Source: an uncultured Latescibacterota bacterium (GTDB lineage: Bacteria; Latescibacterota; UBA2968). From it: 64,000 nt of DNA. Both the position numbers and the translations under genes were made by a program. The stretch is taken from the NCBI GenBank assembly GCA_951812755.1, contig OX638329.1:915339-979338 (forward strand). The letters are read 5' to 3'. Shown in pieces: positions 3,001 through 55,996 of this stretch; position 1 is the first letter of the stretch, and each line of letters opens with the position of its first letter. A model generated the notes under the pieces. That model ran no database searches and was not told where the DNA came from. It saw only the letters and a program-made list of their open reading frames with translations.

Positions 3001-6000
3001 GCGTCATCCCCTTCGGTGACCGTCGCTTTTTTGGGGGTGATGGACACGGCCTGCGCCTCGTCGGTCACCACGATGGTGGCGCTGGCGGGATCGCTGACCG
3101 TATATCCCGTTCCGGCGACGACCGTGGCCGCCGCCGAGCCGTTGACATCCGTGGCGGTGACGCTGGTGGGAAAACGCAGCGTGGTCGAAGTCGCCCCGGC
3201 ATCGAAGGTGGCCGTGCTCACGGGTGACGCGCCCGACAGGGACGGGCCTGTCAGAGTCACCTGTACGTTCACGGTCAGGGACCCTCTCGTGTTGTCCTCG
3301 TAACTCTGTAGTCCAAGGATCGTATAGCGCTTGAGGGTGAAGACGGCGTCGTTCCCCTCCGTCACTGTTGCCGATTCCGCCTCGAGGCTCACGGCTTGCT
3401 GCAGGTCGTCGTCGGTCACACTTACGCTGGCGCTGGCGGGACTGCCGACCGTATATCCCGTTCCGGCGACGACCGTGGCCGTGACCGGGCCGTCGGCTTC
3501 GTGGAAATCGTCGTCATTCAGGGGCACCGTCAGGGTGGTCGTGAGGTCTCCCGACGCAAAGGTGGCCGTGGTGCGCCCCGGAGAGAGGAGAAAGGCGCCG
3601 GTCTCGGTCATATCGACCTGCACCTGCATCTGCCCGGTATCGCTGGTGCGGGTGAGGGTGAAGGCCGCGTCCCCGCTCTCGGGGACCGACGTGGCCGCCG
3701 CGGCGATGGTGACCGCGGGTGGGTCGTTGTCCTTGATGAGGAAGGCGATCGCGTCTCTCCGCCAGTCGGTCCGGTACGCGTGGCCGGCATTTTCAGGGCG
3801 TTCAATGCTCGCGCTGATTTTTATATTCGGTTCATCGAGATCGTCGTCGTCCGTGGGCACGGTAAGGGTGACCGTGGCGTCCCCCGCCGGGAAGGTCGCG
3901 CTCGTCGGCCGCGAAGCGGAAATGTGGGTCGAATACTGATCGGAGAGGCTGGGGTCGATGGTGATGCTCCATACCAGGGGCACTGTCAGCGCATCGACGA
4001 TGTAGCCCACGCGCATCACGGTGAATTCGATGTTTTCCCCTTCGAACAACTCGTGCGGCGGGCCGGTATGCGTCCAATCGACGATGGTGATCAGCTGCTT
4101 TTCGTTGTCGCGCACGGCAATGCGGGCTTCGCCGGCTCCCGTCGCGATTGTGTAGGCATCCGCCTTCACCGGGATCGTCGCGATCACTGCCCCGGTGTTT
4201 TCGGACTCGTCGTCGTCGTCCGTGGACACGGTAAGGGTGGCTGTGGTAGATATCGCTTCGAAGGTTACTTCGCTCGGCGGTGTTCCGTCGATGAAGTCGC
4301 CATCGTCGGTCACCGCTACGTTCACCGTCATCGCCGTCCCGACGGTGGTGCGGGTGAGGGTGAAGACGGCGTCGCCGCCCTCGGTGATCTGTGTCGCGTT
4401 CGCGGTAATGCTGAGCTGTGGCGGGTCGCTGGCCGCGATTGTGCCAGTGGCGGTCAGGGTCTCCCCATTGCCCCTGAGTACGGCGTTTTGCGGGTTGCTC
4501 AGGGTGAAGGTGAAGGTCTCACCAGGCTCGTACAGGACATCGTCCGCCACGGGCACCCGGACCTGCTTTATTGTCTGCGACGATTGTATATCCTCCGGCG
4601 CAAAGGTCACCGTGGCGCTCGCCGACGTATAGTCGTCGTCCGCAGTCGCCGTGCCGTCCGCGGTCTGGTAATCCACCGTCGCCGCGCGCGCGATGCCGTT
4701 GGTGGGGGGGGTCATGGACAGTCTCACCGCGAACTGGATGTGGCCATTCTCTTCGGTCCCGGTCGCATCCAGGACGCTCAGCACCGGGATTTGTTCGTCG
4801 TCGAGGACCGTCACCGTGGCGGTTGCCGGATCGCCGAGCAGGTACCCGTCACTCGCGGTGATCTCCACGGTCACCGGGTGGTCGTCCTTGTAGATCAGGT
4901 CGCCTTTCGTGTTCACCGTCAGGGTGGCCGTGGCGCCAGCCTCGCCAAAGGCGACCTGCGACGGTGCGGTGCCGCTGATGGTGGCGCCCTCGTCGGTTGC
5001 GGTCAGAGCGACGGTCAACGCCGGCAGGCCTTCATCGAAGCAGGTTGGACCAGGGGGGTTGACAACTATGGGAGTGAGGTAGCGGCAGCGGGTGAAGGTG
5101 AAGGCGATCGGTGAACCTTCTCTTACCGACGCAGGAGCGTTGGAGATGAACACGGTCTGGGGAGAAGCATCGCGCACCGCCATATCGGCGTTGCGTCTGT
5201 CTTTGTCGATCATGTAGCTGCGGCTGCTGAGGATCCGCACCGTCAGGTATCCTTCGGAATTCGGGTCTTCGTCGTCGTAGGTCGGAACGCGCACCTCGGC
5301 GGTGGATTCGCCCACGGCGAGGGCCACCGTTCTGTGTTCATTGTAGGGGAGGTCCACGTACACAAGCACGTTCAGTGGGGTGTCGGTGCGGTCGCGTCTC
5401 AGGGTGAATATCGCGTCGTTTCCTTCCCAGACCACGTCTTCGCCGCGCCATCCCTCGGGATCATAACCGGACGCCTCGATCGACACCACTGCCTGGTCGT
5501 TGTCGATAATGGTGGTCGTGGCGCTGGCCGGATCGCCGGCCGTGTAGTCCGCATCCTCGGCAACGCTCACCGTCAGCGTGACCGAGCCGTTGTCTTCGGT
5601 GACCGCGTCGTCTTCGAGTCGCAGCGTGACATCGGCGGTGAGATCCCCTTTCGCGAACGTCACCTCGGTCGGCAGTGTTCCCCTAAGAAATCTGCCCTCA
5701 ATGGCCACGCTGATCTTCGCGGTGAATGCGACCCTGCTCTCCTGGCGGGTCAGGGTGAAGACCACGGTGCCGTCGCCTTCGGAGCGCGTTTCGTCCCTGG
5801 CCGCGACGGTCACTTCCTCCAGGTCGTCGTTGACGATGGAGACCGTAGCGTTGGAAGCGGCCGCCCCGGCGACATAGGAGGCCCCGGATGGGGGTTCTAT
5901 CGCGACCTCGAGATGGTCCCCCTTTTCGTATTTGTCGTCACTGGTGACGGTGACAGTCAGGGTGGCCGTGGAGGATCCTGCTGCGAAGGTGACCGTCCGG

Positions 6001-49437: not shown

Positions 49438-50121
49438 TTAGAAATTAGACGCGGCTGCCTCATACTTCTGTCTCGCTGCTTCCCTTCTTTGTGCGAGCTC
49501 CGCTTGTTTCTTGGCTTTGTTTTCTTTCTCCTTTTTCGCAAAATGCACTGGATCCCTCACTGGCAACTCGGTGCTACTATAATGGATTGAGACCCCATAT
49601 TTACCGCTGTTACCTCTCAAAGCTTCATATTTATCATAGTTATGTGATAAGCTAATGCTTGTCTTACCATCCCTTGTATTCCAATACCAGGTAGGCTCTT
49701 TTGAGCTTATCCTATATACTCCATATTTATCTGCCAAAATGCTTGCAATTTGCACTTTAAGCGCAAAAGCCTCTGATTTTTCTAAACCATCGAAACGATA
49801 CATCCCCGTCCGAAGAGGTTGATCTTTAATAGGCCCACCATCCACATATAGGTAATACAATGAACATTTTTTACCGAAAATTTTCCCATCATACGTATCT
49901 GGCGCTAGTTCATCGGGCCCCCACGCCTCAGAGACTTCAACTTGCGCCCGCGTCATACCCCAATAAATGTTACGAAAATCACGGGCACGGTCCTTATCAA
50001 TGGACTCGAGAACAGCAGCTTTTAGTTCTGCATCCTGATAGTGGTCTGCTATAAACAAAAAGCATACCACTGCAAGACATACGGCGGCAAACATCGTTTT
50101 GCGATATTTAAGCTTAAACAC
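49438..50121 (-). CDS. Hypothetical membrane-anchored protein
   Basis: 227 residues from GTG 50121, chosen because AAAGGGAGG lies just upstream. An N-terminal membrane segment (MFAAVCLAVVCFLFIADHY) acts as anchor or signal. The periplasmic part has IYWGMTRAQVEVSEAWGPDE, a pattern seen in outer-membrane assembly and Ca-binding small proteins, and the C-terminus is a charged helix (KKEKENKAKKQAELAQRREA). No function can be given. It is followed by the 128-residue membrane protein. Confidence 0.6.
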   Translation of the reverse strand: MFKLKYRKTMFAAVCLAVVCFLFIADHYQDAELKAAVLESIDKDRARDFRNIYWGMTRAQVEVSEAWGPDELAPDTYDGKIFGKKCSLYYLYVDGGPIKDQPLRTGMYRFDGLEKSEAFALKVQIASILADKYGVYRISSKEPTWYWNTRDGKTSISLSHNYDKYEALRGNSGKYGVSIHYSSTELPVRDPVHFAKKEKENKAKKQAELAQRREAARQKYEAAASNF

Positions 50122-51393
50122 GGGACACCTCCCTTTGTAAGATGAACCGCCGCACCCACCTGTGAGTGTAAGGTAAAGTGCCTAAAATTCAGCACCTTGA
50201 CACAAAGTCAGCATTGACTTACCTTGCATCCACATTTATGATCTTGGTGAGTGCGATGGCTAAAAAATGTTACGGACATTTATGCTATGTATTCGCCATC
50301 TGCTGGAGGTCCCTGCACGGATCTCCAGTTTTTTATAAAATTATGGTGAAAAAGTTTAAGCTACCGACAAACAGAAAGCCCTGGCATTGCAAACTGTTTT
50401 GCAACTTGTCCGCCAGGGCTTAAGGATATTTCAGGAAGAAGAGTAAGGGTGTAACGGGTTGCCCCTATCGGCACTTAAAAAGGTGCCGGGCGGAGTTCAC
50501 CATTACGCAAACACATCTACGGAAGGTCCTACCTATTCACCTGAGCCGGGTGATCAAGACCGACCTTTGGTAAGGCTCTTATATTTAGTAGGTCACCCGA
50601 CCTGCGGGTGTTTGCCTAATGATGAACAAGAGCAATATAACCACACAGTGATACGTGTCAAAGAAATTATGGTACTGAACCTTCGGTACTTTTGTCTATG
50701 ATCCCAGAAAAATGGCACAAAAAGGCCCGTCAGTCATCACAGATTGATGGGCTTTTAGTTTTCTACATGAAGCATGCGCTCGTATGTATCGGCAGCAGGC
50801 TACGCATCCTTTGCCATTTTTGGGGGATTTTGTGGAGAAACGCGCTCTATTACCATGGCAACGCTGTTTTTTTGCTTTGCCCAACCCATTTATAGCTGTT
50901 CAGTGCCGACCAACGCACAAATAGACCGCGCAGTGAAAGCCTCAAATGTTGTCCAAGGCCCCTCGATAGCCCCTTTTCGCGTGTCACAGGCCCGCAAGTT
51001 GGCAGTTTTTTTCTGCAACACACCGCCAGGAAGGCCCCGAAAAAATAGATTTCCACCAAAAAGAAGGTACTCATTGAGAAAAAAATCGGTCAGGTGTCTG
51101 GACTTGACCCATTTTGGATGCTGTTGCCGAATGAGGAATTGGCAACAGGCGTCATTGCCACCATCCTGGGCGAATAGACTCGCCCTCGAGTACAAACAAA
51201 AGCCCGCCGATCTGTCATAGATCAGTGGGCTTTTTCTTTTGCGAATATCAGCATTTCCTGGCACAAAAACATTGACGGGGAATTGCCCGCCCTCAGTGAC
51301 AGGCAAAAAAGCTCTGGCAAGTGCCGATACACTCACCAGAGCAGATGAAACATGCACACCTTGACAGGTGCATCACCAAGAAAGGACAAGGCT
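50122..51393. other. 1.3-kb region with three terminator-like hairpins, no firm gene
   Basis: Hairpins: AAGCCCTGGC/GCCAGGGCTT (50376-50421, no T-run); GCCCGTCA/TGATGGGC with TTTT (50725-50756); GCCCGCCGATCT/AGATCAGTGGGC with a T-run (51202-51240). One short frame (about 51071-51179, ending LPNEELATGVIATILGE) looks protein-like but has no start codon with a ribosome-binding site. Three separate hairpins without genes suggest decayed or RNA-only units. Confidence 0.5.
51202..51240 (+). terminator. Rho-independent terminator
   Basis: GCCCGCCGATCT (51202-51213) pairs with AGATCAGTGGGC (51219-51230), followed by TTTTTCTTTT. An A-run on the left makes it possibly bidirectional. Confidence 0.8.
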
Positions 51394-51846
51394 ATGGACA
51401 CCGCAACAGAAAAACCCTCGCCACGCCAACGCGCTTTGCTCTCAAAGCTGATATTGTCCTCGGTCTTTTCGGCAGAGGAAGCACACAGAATAGCCGTATG
51501 GCTCGCTTCACCTGGCGCAACCAAAGAGAGAGCGACCGAAGTGATCGGCGACGCATTGTCGCGCATCAAAAAGCGGAATGAGGCTCAGAAAGATTCTGCC
51601 GGCCGCAAGGCCGAATATCACGCCAACAAAGACAATGGCGGTGGGGAATATCCCCCCAAACGCTACTCGCAAGATCATCCCCCCAATGGTGTAGATTCGG
51701 CCAATGGATCCGCACCTGAAACTTCACCAGTTCCATCACCAACTCGCAAAGCTGAAGATGAGCAGAAAATCTACCGCATCAATGGCGTGGATTACACCGA
51801 CAAAAACAAAGCTGCCGCCGCTGCATCAAAGGCAATTTTCGGATAA
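51394..51846 (+). CDS. Hypothetical element protein upstream of radC
   Basis: 150 residues from ATG 51394 (AAAGGA upstream). A helical N-terminal domain (SPRQRALLSKLILSSVFSAE and AHRIAVWLASPGATKERATE) is followed by a disordered Pro/Ser-rich middle and a C-terminal motif, IYRINGVDYTDKNKAAAAAS. The next gene, radC, begins with a similar phrase (MYKINGVHEVEQ). No known family. It starts a plus-strand run of element genes. Confidence 0.6.
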   Translation: MDTATEKPSPRQRALLSKLILSSVFSAEEAHRIAVWLASPGATKERATEVIGDALSRIKKRNEAQKDSAGRKAEYHANKDNGGGEYPPKRYSQDHPPNGVDSANGSAPETSPVPSPTRKAEDEQKIYRINGVDYTDKNKAAAAASKAIFG

Positions 51847-51856
51847 GGAGACTGGC

Positions 51857-52555
51857 ATGTATAAAATCAACGGAGTCCACGAAGTCGAACAGCCGATCTA
51901 CAAGATTCAACAGCGCGGTGCCGAGTCTCTACCCGATGAGGAATTGTTAGCGCTCGTCTTGCGAATCCCACAAAAGAATGACTGCAATGTGCTGGCAAAA
52001 CTGCGCGGCTTCTTAAGACGTAATCCCCTTCAATCCCTTGCCGACTTTCAGCTTGCGACACCACCAGGGCAAATTGTCAACCGCCAGCTTGTCGGCAATG
52101 ATTTGACAAAAGCGCAGTTGTTGAATTTGAAGGCCGTCATCGAGTTTGCCCGCCGCGTGCTTGACAAAGGGTTGGGCACAGAGCCGAGTATCACTTCGCC
52201 TGTTGATGTACTTCCCGAACTGCGCGGCATCAAAGACAAAAAGAGAGAATATTTTGTCGCTGTCTTTCTGAATGCTCGCAATCAGATCATCAATACGGAA
52301 ATCGTCAGCGTTGGCAGTCTATCTGCCTCTCTTGTGCATCCCCGCGAAGTTTTCTCCCCTGCCGTAGCATCTTCAGCCGCGAGTGTGATATTGGGACACA
52401 ACCATCCCAGTGGTGATGTAACACCGAGCCGTGAAGATATTGAACTTACGCGCCGCATTGTGCAGGCCGGTGAGATTATGGGCATTGAGGTACTTGACCA
52501 TCTAATCGTCGGTTCAGAGCGATTTCTTTCAATGAAAGAGGCCAACGTATTTTGA
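51857..52555 (+). CDS. radC: RadC-like JAMM/MPN domain protein
   Basis: 232 residues from ATG 51857 (AAGGAG). An N-terminal helix-hairpin-helix-like part (GAESLPDEELLALVLRI) is followed by the MPN+ domain with EIVSVGSL and the metal motif HNHPSGDVTPSREDIELT. RadC proteins are frequent on plasmids and integrative elements; a metal-dependent hydrolase or DNA role is proposed but unproven. GLGTEPSITSPVDVL marks the domain junction. It is part of the element's DNA-processing set with the Rad52-like gene. Confidence 0.92.
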   Translation: MYKINGVHEVEQPIYKIQQRGAESLPDEELLALVLRIPQKNDCNVLAKLRGFLRRNPLQSLADFQLATPPGQIVNRQLVGNDLTKAQLLNLKAVIEFARRVLDKGLGTEPSITSPVDVLPELRGIKDKKREYFVAVFLNARNQIINTEIVSVGSLSASLVHPREVFSPAVASSAASVILGHNHPSGDVTPSREDIELTRRIVQAGEIMGIEVLDHLIVGSERFLSMKEANVF

Positions 52556-52564
52556 ACACTCCCA

Positions 52565-52589
52565 GGCGGCGACCTGAAAAGTCGCCGCC
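52565..52589 (+). other. Perfect 9-bp stem-loop after radC
   Basis: GGCGGCGAC and GTCGCCGCC enclose a 7-base loop. No T-run follows, so it may be an mRNA processing or stability element rather than a terminator. Confidence 0.6.
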
Positions 52590-52610
52590 ACACACAAGAG
52601 GACTTTGACC

Positions 52611-52805
52611 ATGTGGATAGAGAATGGCAGACGATTGATTGCTCTTGAAGGCCGAGACATCAAACTGCATTGCCACGATATAGTCTTTGAAGGTGGCCGG
52701 AACATCGAAATTCTGCGCTATGAATCACCACAGGCCGCCAGCGTCCAATATGAGGCTATACGTGAACGTCTGGCCGTACAGAACAGAATCATTGTGCAGG
52801 AATAG
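52611..52805 (+). CDS. Small hypothetical protein
   Basis: 64 residues from ATG 52611 (AGAGGA upstream), beginning MWIENGRRLIALEGRDIKLH and containing EGGRNIEILRYESPQAASVQYEAI. It reads as a compact beta-rich protein. Similar short proteins with aspects of a sequence-context sensor occur in phage-like elements, but no family is recognised. Confidence 0.55.
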   Translation: MWIENGRRLIALEGRDIKLHCHDIVFEGGRNIEILRYESPQAASVQYEAIRERLAVQNRIIVQE

Positions 52806-52818
52806 AAAGGAACGTACA

Positions 52819-52993
52819 TGGCAGAAAAGACACCCCCCATCAGCCCGAAAAGTTCGTTGTCCGTTTGAAGTTCTTCGGGCTGGTCACATTAAAGCCAGAG
52901 GAATTTGTCGATAAACTCGAAAAGCTATGCCAGGAGTACACCGAATCGAAAGAGGAATACAACTTTTCGTGGGATACAGACTTTGCGGCCTGA
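52819..52993 (+). pseudogene. Small gene with frameshift at a C6 run
   Basis: ATG 52819 (AAAGGAA upstream) opens MAEKTP and then meets CCCCCC. In the starting frame it stops after 16 codons. The adjacent frame continues as a coherent protein, QPEKFVVRLKFFGLVTLKPE ... YNFSWDTDFAA. One extra C would join them into 58 residues. This is a sequence error, a real frameshift or slippage-controlled expression. Confidence 0.5.
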
Positions 52994-53013
52994 CCATTGA
53001 AAGGATCGCACCA

Positions 53014-53361
53014 ATGGCAAAATATGAAGATGCACCACCAGAGATCGCCGAGGCAATCAAACAATCCACCATCATCAAGGAGCCACACATGCCACAACCA
53101 GAGATCACATTCCGACATGGTTTGTGCAGTGCGAGTATCTTCGAGCAGGACTTCGACCGAGGCGGTGAGAAATTGACCGTCCGCACCGTCAGCTTTCAGC
53201 GCAGTTATTTGGACAAAGAGGGCAACTGGCAACAGACCAATTCCCTCAAGGTGAACGATATTCCCAAAGCAATTCTCGTTCTCCAAAAAAGTTACGAGTT
53301 TCTCACCAGCAACAGCTTTGCCGATGCTGGCGCCGATGTTGAACCAGATGTGGCGGCCTAA
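53014..53361 (+). CDS. Hypothetical element protein
   Basis: 115 residues from ATG 53014 (GAAAGGA upstream). The N-terminus MAKYEDAPPEIAEAIKQS is acidic. The core, ITFRHGLCSASIFEQDFDRG followed by LTVRTVSFQRSYLDKEGNWQ, predicts beta strands, and the end PKAILVLQKSYEFLTS is helical. It resembles small single-domain proteins that accompany recombination genes in integrative elements, but no family is named. The Rad52-like gene follows after a short doubtful frame. Confidence 0.55.
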   Translation: MAKYEDAPPEIAEAIKQSTIIKEPHMPQPEITFRHGLCSASIFEQDFDRGGEKLTVRTVSFQRSYLDKEGNWQQTNSLKVNDIPKAILVLQKSYEFLTSNSFADAGADVEPDVAA

Positions 53362-53412
53362 CGACCACCTGGGGCGGCCTTGTACCGCCCGCAATCATTG
53401 AAAGGATCCAAA

Positions 53413-53601
53413 GTGTTCGAGGATACCGACACACACCCCGCAAAGACGGATATAAATTTCATCAACTACGAATACGGCCCGTCGATCTGCGTGATGCAGG
53501 AGGGCTTTTCAATCAAAGCCCACAGGCGACTTTGCGCCAAAAGACACCTTGATCCAGGCAGCCCAACGTGCGCTTTCCCTGACGCACAAGACGAAGTTTA
53601 A
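53413..53601 (+). CDS. Doubtful small ORF before Rad52-like gene
   Basis: 62 residues from GTG 53413 (GAAAGGAT upstream), VFEDTDTHPAKTDINFINYE onward. The second half reads more naturally in another frame (PKDTLIQAAQRALSLTHKTK), so this may be another frameshifted small gene. Confidence 0.3.
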   Translation: MFEDTDTHPAKTDINFINYEYGPSICVMQEGFSIKAHRRLCAKRHLDPGSPTCAFPDAQDEV

Positions 53602-53631
53602 CAACCACCCCAACCGATAAAGGAAATTACA

Positions 53632-54381
53632 ATGGCTATAACCGACGCCGATCTGCTTCCTGAAGTCGATGTTGAGCAACTTATCGGAGAGTGCTATACA
53701 CCCTTTCCTCAAAACGTGATAAAGATTCGCCAGGATGCAGGTACAGGCAACAAGCCGCTGTCCTATGTTGGACACCCCGAATATACCCGGCGCCTCGATG
53801 CGCTCTTTCCATTCGCCTGGGACTTCCTAACCGAAGTGGCAGGATTGACTGACACAACCGTTGCAGTCAAAGGCTCGCTGTCTATCACCCTGGCCGATGG
53901 GCGCACGATCACGCGAGAAAACTTTGGCAATGGCGCAATCAACCGGGGCTTCCCCCTGGGCGATGCAATGAAGGTCGCCGCTGTCGATGCCCTCAAGAAG
54001 TGTTGCAGTACGTTTGGCATTGGTCTGCACCTCTACGATGGGGATACCGAGCTTGACAATCGCCAGCACCAGGCCAGCAACAACGGTCAGCACAACAACG
54101 GTCAGCATTATGACTCTCCCCAGGATGATCCCTATTCTCCTGATTGGGAGCCGCCGCCGCGCGAGCAAGGCCCTGAGCGTTACGAGTTTGGTGATGATCC
54201 GTCACCGGCTACCAGCCGCCAGATCGTAGCGTTGCAGAACATCGCAAAGAGCAACAAAACGGATCCGGCCCTGGCGAAAAAAATTAAGCATAAGCTGGAG
54301 ACTCCCGCGCCAGATGGTGGTGTGCGCGTCAGTAAGAAAGAGGCCAGCGATTTGATCAGTAAGGCATTCGATAAAGATTAG
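53632..54381 (+). CDS. Rad52/Rad22-like single-strand annealing protein
   Basis: 249 residues. The N-terminal domain (about 15-140) has the Rad52-type pattern: PLSYVGHPEYTRRLDALFPF, a basic beta-sheet (GSLSITLADGRTITRENFGN) and GDAMKVAAVDALKKCCSTFG. It would anneal complementary single strands in homologous recombination. A polar Gln/Asn/His linker leads to a C-terminal helical tail (TSRQIVALQNIAKSNKTDPA ... KKEASDLISKAF), often a protein-binding module. GGAAA precedes the ATG. With RadC it forms the recombination set of the element. Confidence 0.82.
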   Translation: MAITDADLLPEVDVEQLIGECYTPFPQNVIKIRQDAGTGNKPLSYVGHPEYTRRLDALFPFAWDFLTEVAGLTDTTVAVKGSLSITLADGRTITRENFGNGAINRGFPLGDAMKVAAVDALKKCCSTFGIGLHLYDGDTELDNRQHQASNNGQHNNGQHYDSPQDDPYSPDWEPPPREQGPERYEFGDDPSPATSRQIVALQNIAKSNKTDPALAKKIKHKLETPAPDGGVRVSKKEASDLISKAFDKD

Positions 54382-54547: not shown

Positions 54548-54580
54548 AAGCCCCTGGTAGCGATTACCAGGGGCTTTTTC
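54548..54580 (+). terminator. Rho-independent terminator
   Basis: AAGCCCCTGGTA and TACCAGGGGCTT form a perfect 12-bp stem followed by TTTTTC, closing the recombination gene run. Confidence 0.9.
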
Positions 54581-54613: not shown

Positions 54614-54808
54614 ATGACAACACCAGCCCGCCCGATTGAGCGACACGACAAAGACGAGCTTCAGATCGTTGCTATCAAAATCCCGCGCGTCCTTATTGCT
54701 CTGCTCGACAATGCCGCGAGTAATGATTGGGATACTCGCAATAGCGTCATTCGGCGCATTCTTGAGAAACACTTCGAGAATGCCCAAACGTCCACAGACG
54801 CCGGTTAA
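54614..54808 (+). CDS. Ribbon-helix-helix-like small DNA-binding protein
   Basis: 64 residues from ATG 54614 (GGAGAA upstream). The strand ELQIVAIKIPRVLIALLDNA followed by the helix TRNSVIRRILEKHF fits a CopG/Arc-type ribbon-helix-helix fold. It is probably a regulator of the element, flanked by a terminator on each side and therefore independently transcribed. Confidence 0.6.
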   Translation: MTTPARPIERHDKDELQIVAIKIPRVLIALLDNAASNDWDTRNSVIRRILEKHFENAQTSTDAG

Positions 54809-54871
54809 GGCGTTCTAATGCACGATCTGTCTGACCCGCCCCACCGGAACAATACTGACCTATAAAACACG

Positions 54872-54903
54872 CCCCACAGGTTTAAGCCTGGTGGGGGTTT
54901 TTC
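54872..54903 (+). terminator. Rho-independent terminator
   Basis: CCCCACAGG and CCTGGTGGGG form the stem, followed by a run of seven T residues. It lies between the ribbon-helix-helix gene and the DUF1232 gene. Confidence 0.82.
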
Positions 54904-54916
54904 ATTGGAGAACTGT

Positions 54917-55246
54917 ATGGGAGAAAACACCTATTACACAGATGACGACTTTTGGGAGAAGCTCAACAGCTATGCCAGAAAAGCCGGGCGCAAGGTTGTC
55001 GAGAAAGCCCTACAACTCTACTATGCCGCCGCCGATCCAAAGACGCCCGCATGGGCAAAGAGCGTGATATGGGGCGCGCTGATGTATTTCGTTGCGCCGG
55101 TCGATGCCATCCCTGACGTGGTTCCGTTTGCTGGATTCAGCGACGACATGGGGGTGCTGGTCTGTGCGATCATAACCGTCAATGCGCACATCACGGAAAA
55201 GATTGAAAAGCGAGCGACCGAGAAATTGAAGGAGTGGTTCGGCTGA
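54917..55246 (+). CDS. DUF1232 (YkvA-like) membrane protein
   Basis: 109 residues from ATG 54917 (GGAG upstream). The family core is present: AKSVIWGALMYFVAPVDAIPDVVPFAGFSDDMGVL, with YFxxPxDxIPDxxPxxGxxDD. A membrane hairpin and an amphipathic C-terminal helix (EKIEKRATEKLKEWFG) complete it. Function unknown; common on chromosomes and mobile elements. Confidence 0.85.
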   Translation: MGENTYYTDDDFWEKLNSYARKAGRKVVEKALQLYYAAADPKTPAWAKSVIWGALMYFVAPVDAIPDVVPFAGFSDDMGVLVCAIITVNAHITEKIEKRATEKLKEWFG

Positions 55247-55254
55247 TTTGTGTT

Positions 55255-55475
55255 GACGGCCCCGTCTATCGTTGTATTCTGACAACGATTCATTGTCAGG
55301 CAGACACCCGTTTTGTCGGGTATCCTGCTGAATACAACAGCCCACCAACGGGACGGATTAGCTACCCATCTCAGGGCAAATAGGCGGGGGCTTTCTCGCA
55401 TCACTCTGCGTGACGGTGAATCGTGCCCGGCACTCATTTTTGTGAGTGCCACAACCACCTCACGCGAAAGCCCAC
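55255..55475. ncRNA. Highly structured RNA-like segment, possibly C4 antisense RNA-related
   Basis: Nested complementary segments: GGGCTTTC-CGC (55388-55399) with GCGAAAGCCC (55464-55473); GCGTGA (55408-55413) with TCACGC (55460-55465); GGCACTCA (55429-55436) with TGAGTGCC (55443-55450). Upstream are TGACAACGATTCATTGTCA and ACCCGTTTTGTCGGGT. Its minus-strand translation (RWVANPSRWWAVVFSRIP, KTGVCLTMNRCQ) recalls Icd-like ORFs of P1/P4-type phage elements, which overlap C4 antisense RNA loci. That link is from memory and unverified; the folding is seen directly. The strand is not determined. Confidence 0.45.
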
Positions 55476-55476
55476 C

Positions 55477-55575
55477 ATGCGGAAAACAACCGTAAAGCTG
55501 CACAGTTCAACTGGTAAGAACGACTGGCCCTACTGCTTTAACGAAGACAAGAAAGCGAGCGTCACGACGCGATGA
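55477..55575 (+). CDS. Very short ORF after the structured segment
   Basis: 32 residues, starting MRKTTVKLHSSTGKNDWPYC. The initiation region falls within the hairpin foot, and the frame ends inside the convergent gene. It may be a truncated gene start. Low support. Confidence 0.25.
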   Translation: MRKTTVKLHSSTGKNDWPYCFNEDKKASVTTR

Positions 55576-55996
55576 ATCTTCTCAGGAAATGATCTTCTTC
55601 TTGTCTTGTGTTACAATGATATGTATCTCTGATCATCTTCCTAAGTGTCTCTCCATTTGGGCCGCATACCTTCTCAGCTTCCGAAAGATCTACATTGTTT
55701 AGTTTCTCTTCAGAAATTCCTCCCTTTGGCATAGGATTGATTGTCCATATTTCGGTCAATCCTATGTGTTGATCATTAGACAATCGAATGTTATCTAGTT
55801 TGTCCTTTAGGGCAACTGGTCCGGCACCGTATGCAAGGGCAAGGTTAATCTGGGAGTCAATCTTCACGTCTATAGCAGGCTTACGCTTGAAAAAGGTAAT
55901 GTCGCAGGGATGCCCTGTCATGGAAAGCTGGCATACCTGATAGCCAAGGAAAGCCAAACGGGATCCAAAAATCTCTTCCAGTTTCTCAATATTCAT
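55562..55996 (-). CDS. Hypothetical protein, possibly nuclease-like
   Basis: 144 residues from ATG 55996 (AAAGGA upstream). MTGHPCDITFFKRKPAIDVKID gives a D...(x)DxK pattern that could be a PD-(D/E)XK-type core, but the remaining motifs are not clear. Its start overlaps the end of the preceding small gene by 11 bp, indicating an operon. The base composition is more AT-rich than the plus-strand recombination genes. Confidence 0.5.
   Translation of the reverse strand: MNIEKLEEIFGSRLAFLGYQVCQLSMTGHPCDITFFKRKPAIDVKIDSQINLALAYGAGPVALKDKLDNIRLSNDQHIGLTEIWTINPMPKGGISEEKLNNVDLSEAEKVCGPNGETLRKMIRDTYHCNTRQEEDHFLRRFIAS

Follow-up and report, generated by a model that had tools for sequence, protein, structure and literature searches.

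What a strongly folded segment (positions 55255-55475) that seems to lack any credible gene might be doing in the genome of an uncultured Latescibacterota bacterium was the question raised by the DNA studied here, a continuous stretch of 64,000 nucleotides that we refer to as the window. A preliminary description had noted the folding, several complementary arms and hairpins, and had likened the segment to a C4 antisense RNA overlain by an Icd-like frame on the minus strand. The folding was borne out on both strands: the plus strand attains -88.9 kcal/mol against a mean of -63.7 (sd 4.3, z = -5.84) in 200 dinucleotide shuffles, none of which (0/200) folded as low as the native sequence, and the minus strand gives z = -5.43 against shuffles. 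The arms and hairpins are likewise present by sequence (Table 1), and the absence of a credible gene stands, the best match of the four reading frames to a known family having an E value of 0.12. The C4 identity was not recovered: at gathering thresholds Rfam recognizes three tRNAs only in the whole window, and the C4 model (RF01695) has no match in the window, nor in the segment even at E<=10. The Icd resemblance is unsupported because the best match of the 160-aa minus-strand frame among phage proteins is a PHROG at E 0.12, and none exists in Pfam, the comparison being with family profiles rather than with an Icd sequence. With no match to RF01695, and no family of phage proteins for the minus strand, the C4/Icd interpretation was rejected. 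At E<=10 the top-scoring Rfam entry for the segment is instead sRNA-Xcc1, at 18.1 bits (E 1.8).

With positions 55240-55580 as query, blastn matched the own genome at four places, as well as 15 of the 60 genomes searched as relatives. A covariance model of the conserved core, R1, recovers seven copies in the own genome, two of them inside the window, and matches 23 of the 64 genomes of the phylum Latescibacterota, with a patchy distribution and no more than nine per genome. Further, scanning the GTDB collection with a pattern of two conserved blocks gave 39 stretches, whose records bear the names Latescibacterota, Gemmatimonadota, Gammaproteobacteria, Rhodospirillales, Poribacteria, Chloroflexi, Nitrospira and Acidobacteria, among others; many of the MAG series carrying it are presumably sponge-associated. 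A conserved structured RNA that is scattered over many phyla has one of its copies at 55285-55434. For comparisons between copies we used 80 of the 81 R1 matches (loci are given L numbers; L108 repeats L032), of which 17 were dropped as more than 88% alike, leaving 63. At two loci, L091 (1501-1740, minus strand) and L092 (1387-1619, plus strand), a second, weaker copy immediately precedes the first in a tandem-like arrangement.

Table 1. Features predicted in and around the folded segment (window coordinates).
Feature	Position	Strand	Remarks
Sigma-70-like promoter TTGACG-16-TATTCT	55253-55280	+	9/12 matches; transcription start expected near 55285
Arm pair	55271-55279 x 55330-55338		9/9 nt; -10 region exactly complementary to the conserved core motif
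Hairpin	55279-55299		
P1 5' strand	55285-55304	+	pairs with 55405-55424; arm pair of 20 nt, 85%
P2 hairpin ACCCG/CGGGT	55306-55321	+	from sequence; swap test
Conserved core (R1)	55315-55434	+	99 bits, E 1.3e-16 in own genome
Pk 5' strand GTCGGGT	55315-55321	+	within core
P3	55324-55329 x 55383-55388	+	within core
Conserved loop GAATACAACA / AAATA	55330-55339 / 55378-55382	+	within core
P4	55340-55342 x 55375-55377	+	within core; hairpin P5 also in core
Putative switching strand X	55388-55424	+	includes P1 3' strand 55405-55424; alternative partner ~55453-55475 before ATG
Arm pair	55388-55398 x 55463-55473		91%
Pk 3' strand GCCCGGC	55425-55431	+	within core
Hairpin GGCACTCA/TGAGTGCC	55429-55450	+	between core and start codon
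Short ORF, 32 aa	55477-55575	+	directly after RNA
DUF1232 (YkvA-like) gene	54905-55246	+	directly upstream of RNA; common to L012, L015, L016
Second RNA copy	50482-50601	-	78 bits (R1)

Covariation among homologues, which the preliminary description had named as something to look for, was found over 40 core sequences: the covariation score is 0.270 against 0.188 in shuffled controls (0/500) and 0.057-0.084 when slid, double changes number 66 against 27 in shuffles, and 90.5% of the cells in Pk, P3, P4 and P5 are paired. RNAalifold on the untrimmed alignment A1 returned nine pairs only, the sequence of P1 being too variable for alignment, and P1 was therefore studied by swapping partners between copies. 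Over the 63 non-redundant copies its duplex with the own X averages -29.5 kcal/mol versus -15.8 for mismatched partners, and the own partner is the best in both row and column in 44 of them; P1 is specific to each copy. Support for P2 is modest (own -9.76 versus -8.55, p = 1e-5, 61 copies). Since P1 and Pk cross, a pseudoknot would form, and since CGGG is common to P2 and Pk, these two appear from their sequence to be mutually exclusive. In one of the arm pairs the 5' arm (55271-55279) overlaps the predicted -10 box and is probably untranscribed, and the pair is a minority feature among the copies, with complementarity of at least 8 nt between the -10 region and the core motif at the same place in 4/60 copies versus a background of 3/2221. 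This complementarity reaches 12 nt in L012 and 11 nt in L035.

In most copies about 30-35 nt separate the core from the end of a sigma-70-like promoter upstream of it. The best promoter score there averages 8.29 versus 6.61 at random positions (63 copies, p = 5e-24), with scores of at least 9 in 25/63 copies versus 57/1748 random positions. On the other side, a start codon immediately follows the RNA in most copies, and an ATG or GTG with a Shine-Dalgarno-like motif stands 15-80 nt past the core in 26/63 copies versus 63/1064 random positions. Over the copies the element has a predicted 5' leader position between promoter and start codon, as judged from sequence. Promoter, covariation and gene order together indicate an RNA on the plus strand that serves as a leader and not an antisense RNA. 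The genes that follow are mostly unrelated and often encode secreted proteins: signal-like N-termini, called by a crude hydrophobicity rule and not by a trained predictor, mark 24/40 downstream products versus 37/301 other genes of the same loci (p = 1e-10). Among the 30 of 52 downstream proteins scanned against Pfam, most have no family and no pathway is held in common; those with a family include ankyrin repeats (L018), leucine-rich repeats (L041), reprolysin with fibronectin III (L063), dockerin (L017), staphylococcal-nuclease homologues (L021, L042), CsgG (L056) and the MunI restriction enzyme (L027). The first four of these secreted products we take to recall the eukaryote-like proteins of sponge symbionts.

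The strand X, which lies between P3 and GCCCGG and includes the 3' strand of P1, is also complementary to the ribosome-binding site (RBS) in a number of copies. Across 38 of the 63 copies, picked by eye after the duplex positions were already visible, and from start codons whose scoring rewarded Shine-Dalgarno motif, ATG, length, closeness and signal-like N-termini but not X, the pairing of X with the RBS falls within the best 5% of own-locus windows in 16 (p = 1e-11), leaving 22 outside, and surpasses that with 95% of the other copies' RBSs in 11 (p = 2e-6). The complementarity has its peak from -35 to +5 relative to the start codon, and outside this range the signal is close to zero. A rule-based repeat, which kept the same start codons as the by-eye set, gave a longest run of 6.15 versus 4.81 (39/63 copies, p = 8e-7), and p = 0.005 for the 21 GTDB pattern loci alone; prominent single cases are L055 with 14 nt, and L022 and L035 with 10 nt each. 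In the swap test neither of the two window copies stands out, 28 (for the copy at 55285-55434) and 45 of 62 mismatched partners being equally good. Alternative pairings by which the RBS is either exposed or hidden are seen statistically over the copies and not for the window copy alone. An X strand that alternates between P1 and the RBS appears to have the anatomy of a translational switch.

The nearest Rfam family to this RNA is sRNA-Xcc1 (RF02221). Copies such as those of the window may be termed the long branch, and sRNA-Xcc1-type copies the short branch. Both share the core motif and the closing helix GUCGGG x CCCGGC in alignments, and the same order of elements, namely Pk 5' strand, GAAUACAA loop, CC..GG hairpin, GAAUA, RBS-complementary strand and Pk 3' strand. 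Cross-matches between the branches occur at E 0.0003-0.002: L064 matches RF02221 with 33.0 bits (E 0.0003), and R1 in turn detects one of three RF02221 copies scoring above the cut-off (E 0.0019). The long branch nevertheless differs in remaining at 18-33 bits, below the RF02221 gathering cut-off of 53 (window 18.1, L013 26.5, L064 33.0; the intermediate L242 32.4), and in having an additional upstream P1 strand and an enlarged P4/P5. Moreover, its RBS-complementary element is the region of the P1 3' strand, whereas that of sRNA-Xcc1 is a hairpin loop, and it precedes many genes for secreted proteins, whereas sRNA-Xcc1 precedes phage antirepressors. The viral contig L242 is matched by both R1 (49.0 bits) and RF02221 (32.4 bits) and has an intermediate layout. 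By eye, this intermediate form (5855-5950, minus strand) lies between RecT-like and exonuclease-like frames. L242 is the single match of a shorter long-branch pattern in viral contigs; the strict long-branch pattern has 0 matches there, and the long-branch core of L064 has none among plasmid and phage records. The exact sRNA-Xcc1-type core pattern is found in at least 120 viral contigs.

Pk behaves differently in the two branches. In the long branch it is nearly invariant and has no two-sided covariation (99.3% of cells paired; five of seven pairs invariant, two varying on one side only), and in 40 short-branch copies the own partner gives -21.1 versus -14.7 kcal/mol and is the best in its row in 13. 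For the short-branch loop, the 118 copies among the matches listed reduced to 40 non-redundant ones, 34 of them with a usable start; in these 34 the complementary run between the loop and the own Shine-Dalgarno region averages 6.79 versus 4.34 nt (p = 6e-21). Runs of at least 6 nt are present in 31/34 own versus 127/1122 mismatched combinations of these phage-borne copies among the matches listed, all 34 run sequences are different, and the peak lies between -24 and 0. Such covariation argues for cis action of the sRNA-Xcc1-type copies. Ten of the 32 listed downstream proteins were scanned against Pfam, and seven of these proved to be phage regulators of the antirepressor type or similar (AntA, P22_AR, Bro-N, KilA-N, Rha). 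The original description of 2011 reportedly presented sRNA-Xcc1 as integron-encoded and trans-acting. In our search of the open-access literature we met no earlier statement of cis action by sRNA-Xcc1. Published accounts describe it as a discrete 88-nt RNA of Xanthomonas by Northern and RACE (PMC2996969), as accompanying symE, upstream of that gene, in the integron cassette most widespread in Xanthomonas (PMC12444791), and as present in seven copies in Xylella (PMC12189769). An integron cassette in the own genome was rejected on a search for integrases, which gave no integron integrase over the cut-off.

The surroundings of the window copies differ from those of a typical member. The short ORF after the copy at 55285-55434 runs into convergent genes, so that this copy looks orphaned; a 32-codon ORF is the most that it now controls, and it has the look of a remnant. 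L015 and L016 are homologous to this region across the DUF1232 gene and the RNA and for about 30 nt into the short ORF, and L012 is similar in two pieces. By eye, the short ORF of L012 and L015 has a terminator-like hairpin within it and stops at the start codon of the next, longer gene, which suggests translational coupling, and that of L016 stops earlier. Comparable intrinsic-terminator-like hairpins at 54549-54580 and 54871-54905, again by eye, stand just before the starts of small genes at 54615 and 54905, an arrangement as in L012, L015 and L016; read-through or attenuation at these sites is possible. The second copy (50601..50482) is followed by an intrinsic-terminator-like hairpin and then by a gene (50121..49438) with a signal-like N-terminus. 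Elsewhere in the genome L079 is 85% identical to it over 278 nt. RadC and Rad52 genes at 51704-54381, upstream of the copy at 55285-55434, suggest that a mobile element surrounds the RNA copies.

We consider it probable, at roughly 0.7, that the segment is a cis-acting 5' leader RNA functioning as a translational switch, and that it belongs to the long branch of a superfamily including sRNA-Xcc1. Structure, covariation, promoter position, gene position and RBS complementarity furnish the computational support; the direction of the switch and the existence of a signal we infer. Transcription would begin at P1, and the core, comprising the GAAUACAA / GAAUA internal loop, P3-P4-P5 and Pk (GUCGGG/CCCGGC), would frame strand X. 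With X held by the P1 5' strand the RBS would be free, and with X paired to the RBS translation would be blocked; the conserved unpaired core presumably senses a metabolite, ion or protein that chooses between both states. As in translational riboswitches, a promoter-proximal conserved core is followed by mutually exclusive pairing of the RBS, but here any ligand is hypothetical and the downstream genes have no common pathway. Against such a leader speak, besides this lack of a pathway, the copies in which X is not outstanding for the RBS, the two window copies included, and the finding of an ORF of at least 80 aa starting 15-80 nt past the core in 40/63 copies only.

That the core responds to a bound protein in place of a small molecule is a variant of the same proposal and does not exclude it; its conserved unpaired sequence and the lack of a metabolic pathway common to the downstream genes are in line with this, but the spread over many phyla would require a very widespread protein, and we regard it as rather unlikely. 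The discrete 88-nt transcript of sRNA-Xcc1 (PMC2996969) counts against a leader and in favor of a stand-alone trans-acting small RNA, as published for that family, whose position before genes would be incidental. So does the second window copy, which meets a terminator-like hairpin before any gene start, with L079 alike over 278 nt. However, start codons at a set distance, and the better complementarity of both branches to their own RBS than to those of other copies, make a trans-acting RNA improbable. RNAs such as the phage HK022 put RNA and the Bacillus EAR element make RNA polymerase ignore downstream terminators. A similar promoter-proximal role would suit an RNA that starts at the promoter and is separated from the gene by terminator-like hairpins (by eye) in L012, L015, L016 and past the second copy; yet in most other copies the start codon directly follows, and the RBS complementarity would be left unexplained, so that we give this little credence.

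C4 RNAs control antirepressor-type genes in P1-type elements, and a C4-type antisense RNA with an Icd-like frame could invoke the strong fold of both strands and the antirepressor genes behind the short-branch relatives, but, already refuted as family membership by the searches above and lacking any sequence or structure match to an RNA here read as cis-acting on the sense strand, it has a negligible chance of being correct. The wider guess of a phage-type regulatory RNA in the preliminary description was a fair one: the RNA is conserved and covarying, and its nearest relative is phage-borne before antirepressor genes, although it is not C4.

If the segment is indeed a leader of this kind, a family filed as trans-acting sRNAs would become a testable class of cis-acting translation switches, with the covariation of loop and Shine-Dalgarno region making cis action directly accessible to experiment, and would gain a branch with its own architecture spread across many phyla. 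We tentatively suggest, as a proposal to which we would give somewhat less than even odds, that sRNA-Xcc1 and the long branch may constitute one unrecognised riboswitch superclass, in which a mobile aptamer core with interchangeable RBS-pairing strands responds to a widespread signal and gates prophage antirepressors on the one hand, and, in many phyla, including several apparent sponge symbionts, secreted and sometimes eukaryote-like proteins on the other. An orphan sensor core would thereby be named, and its signal might connect the induction of prophages with the secretion of host-interaction proteins.
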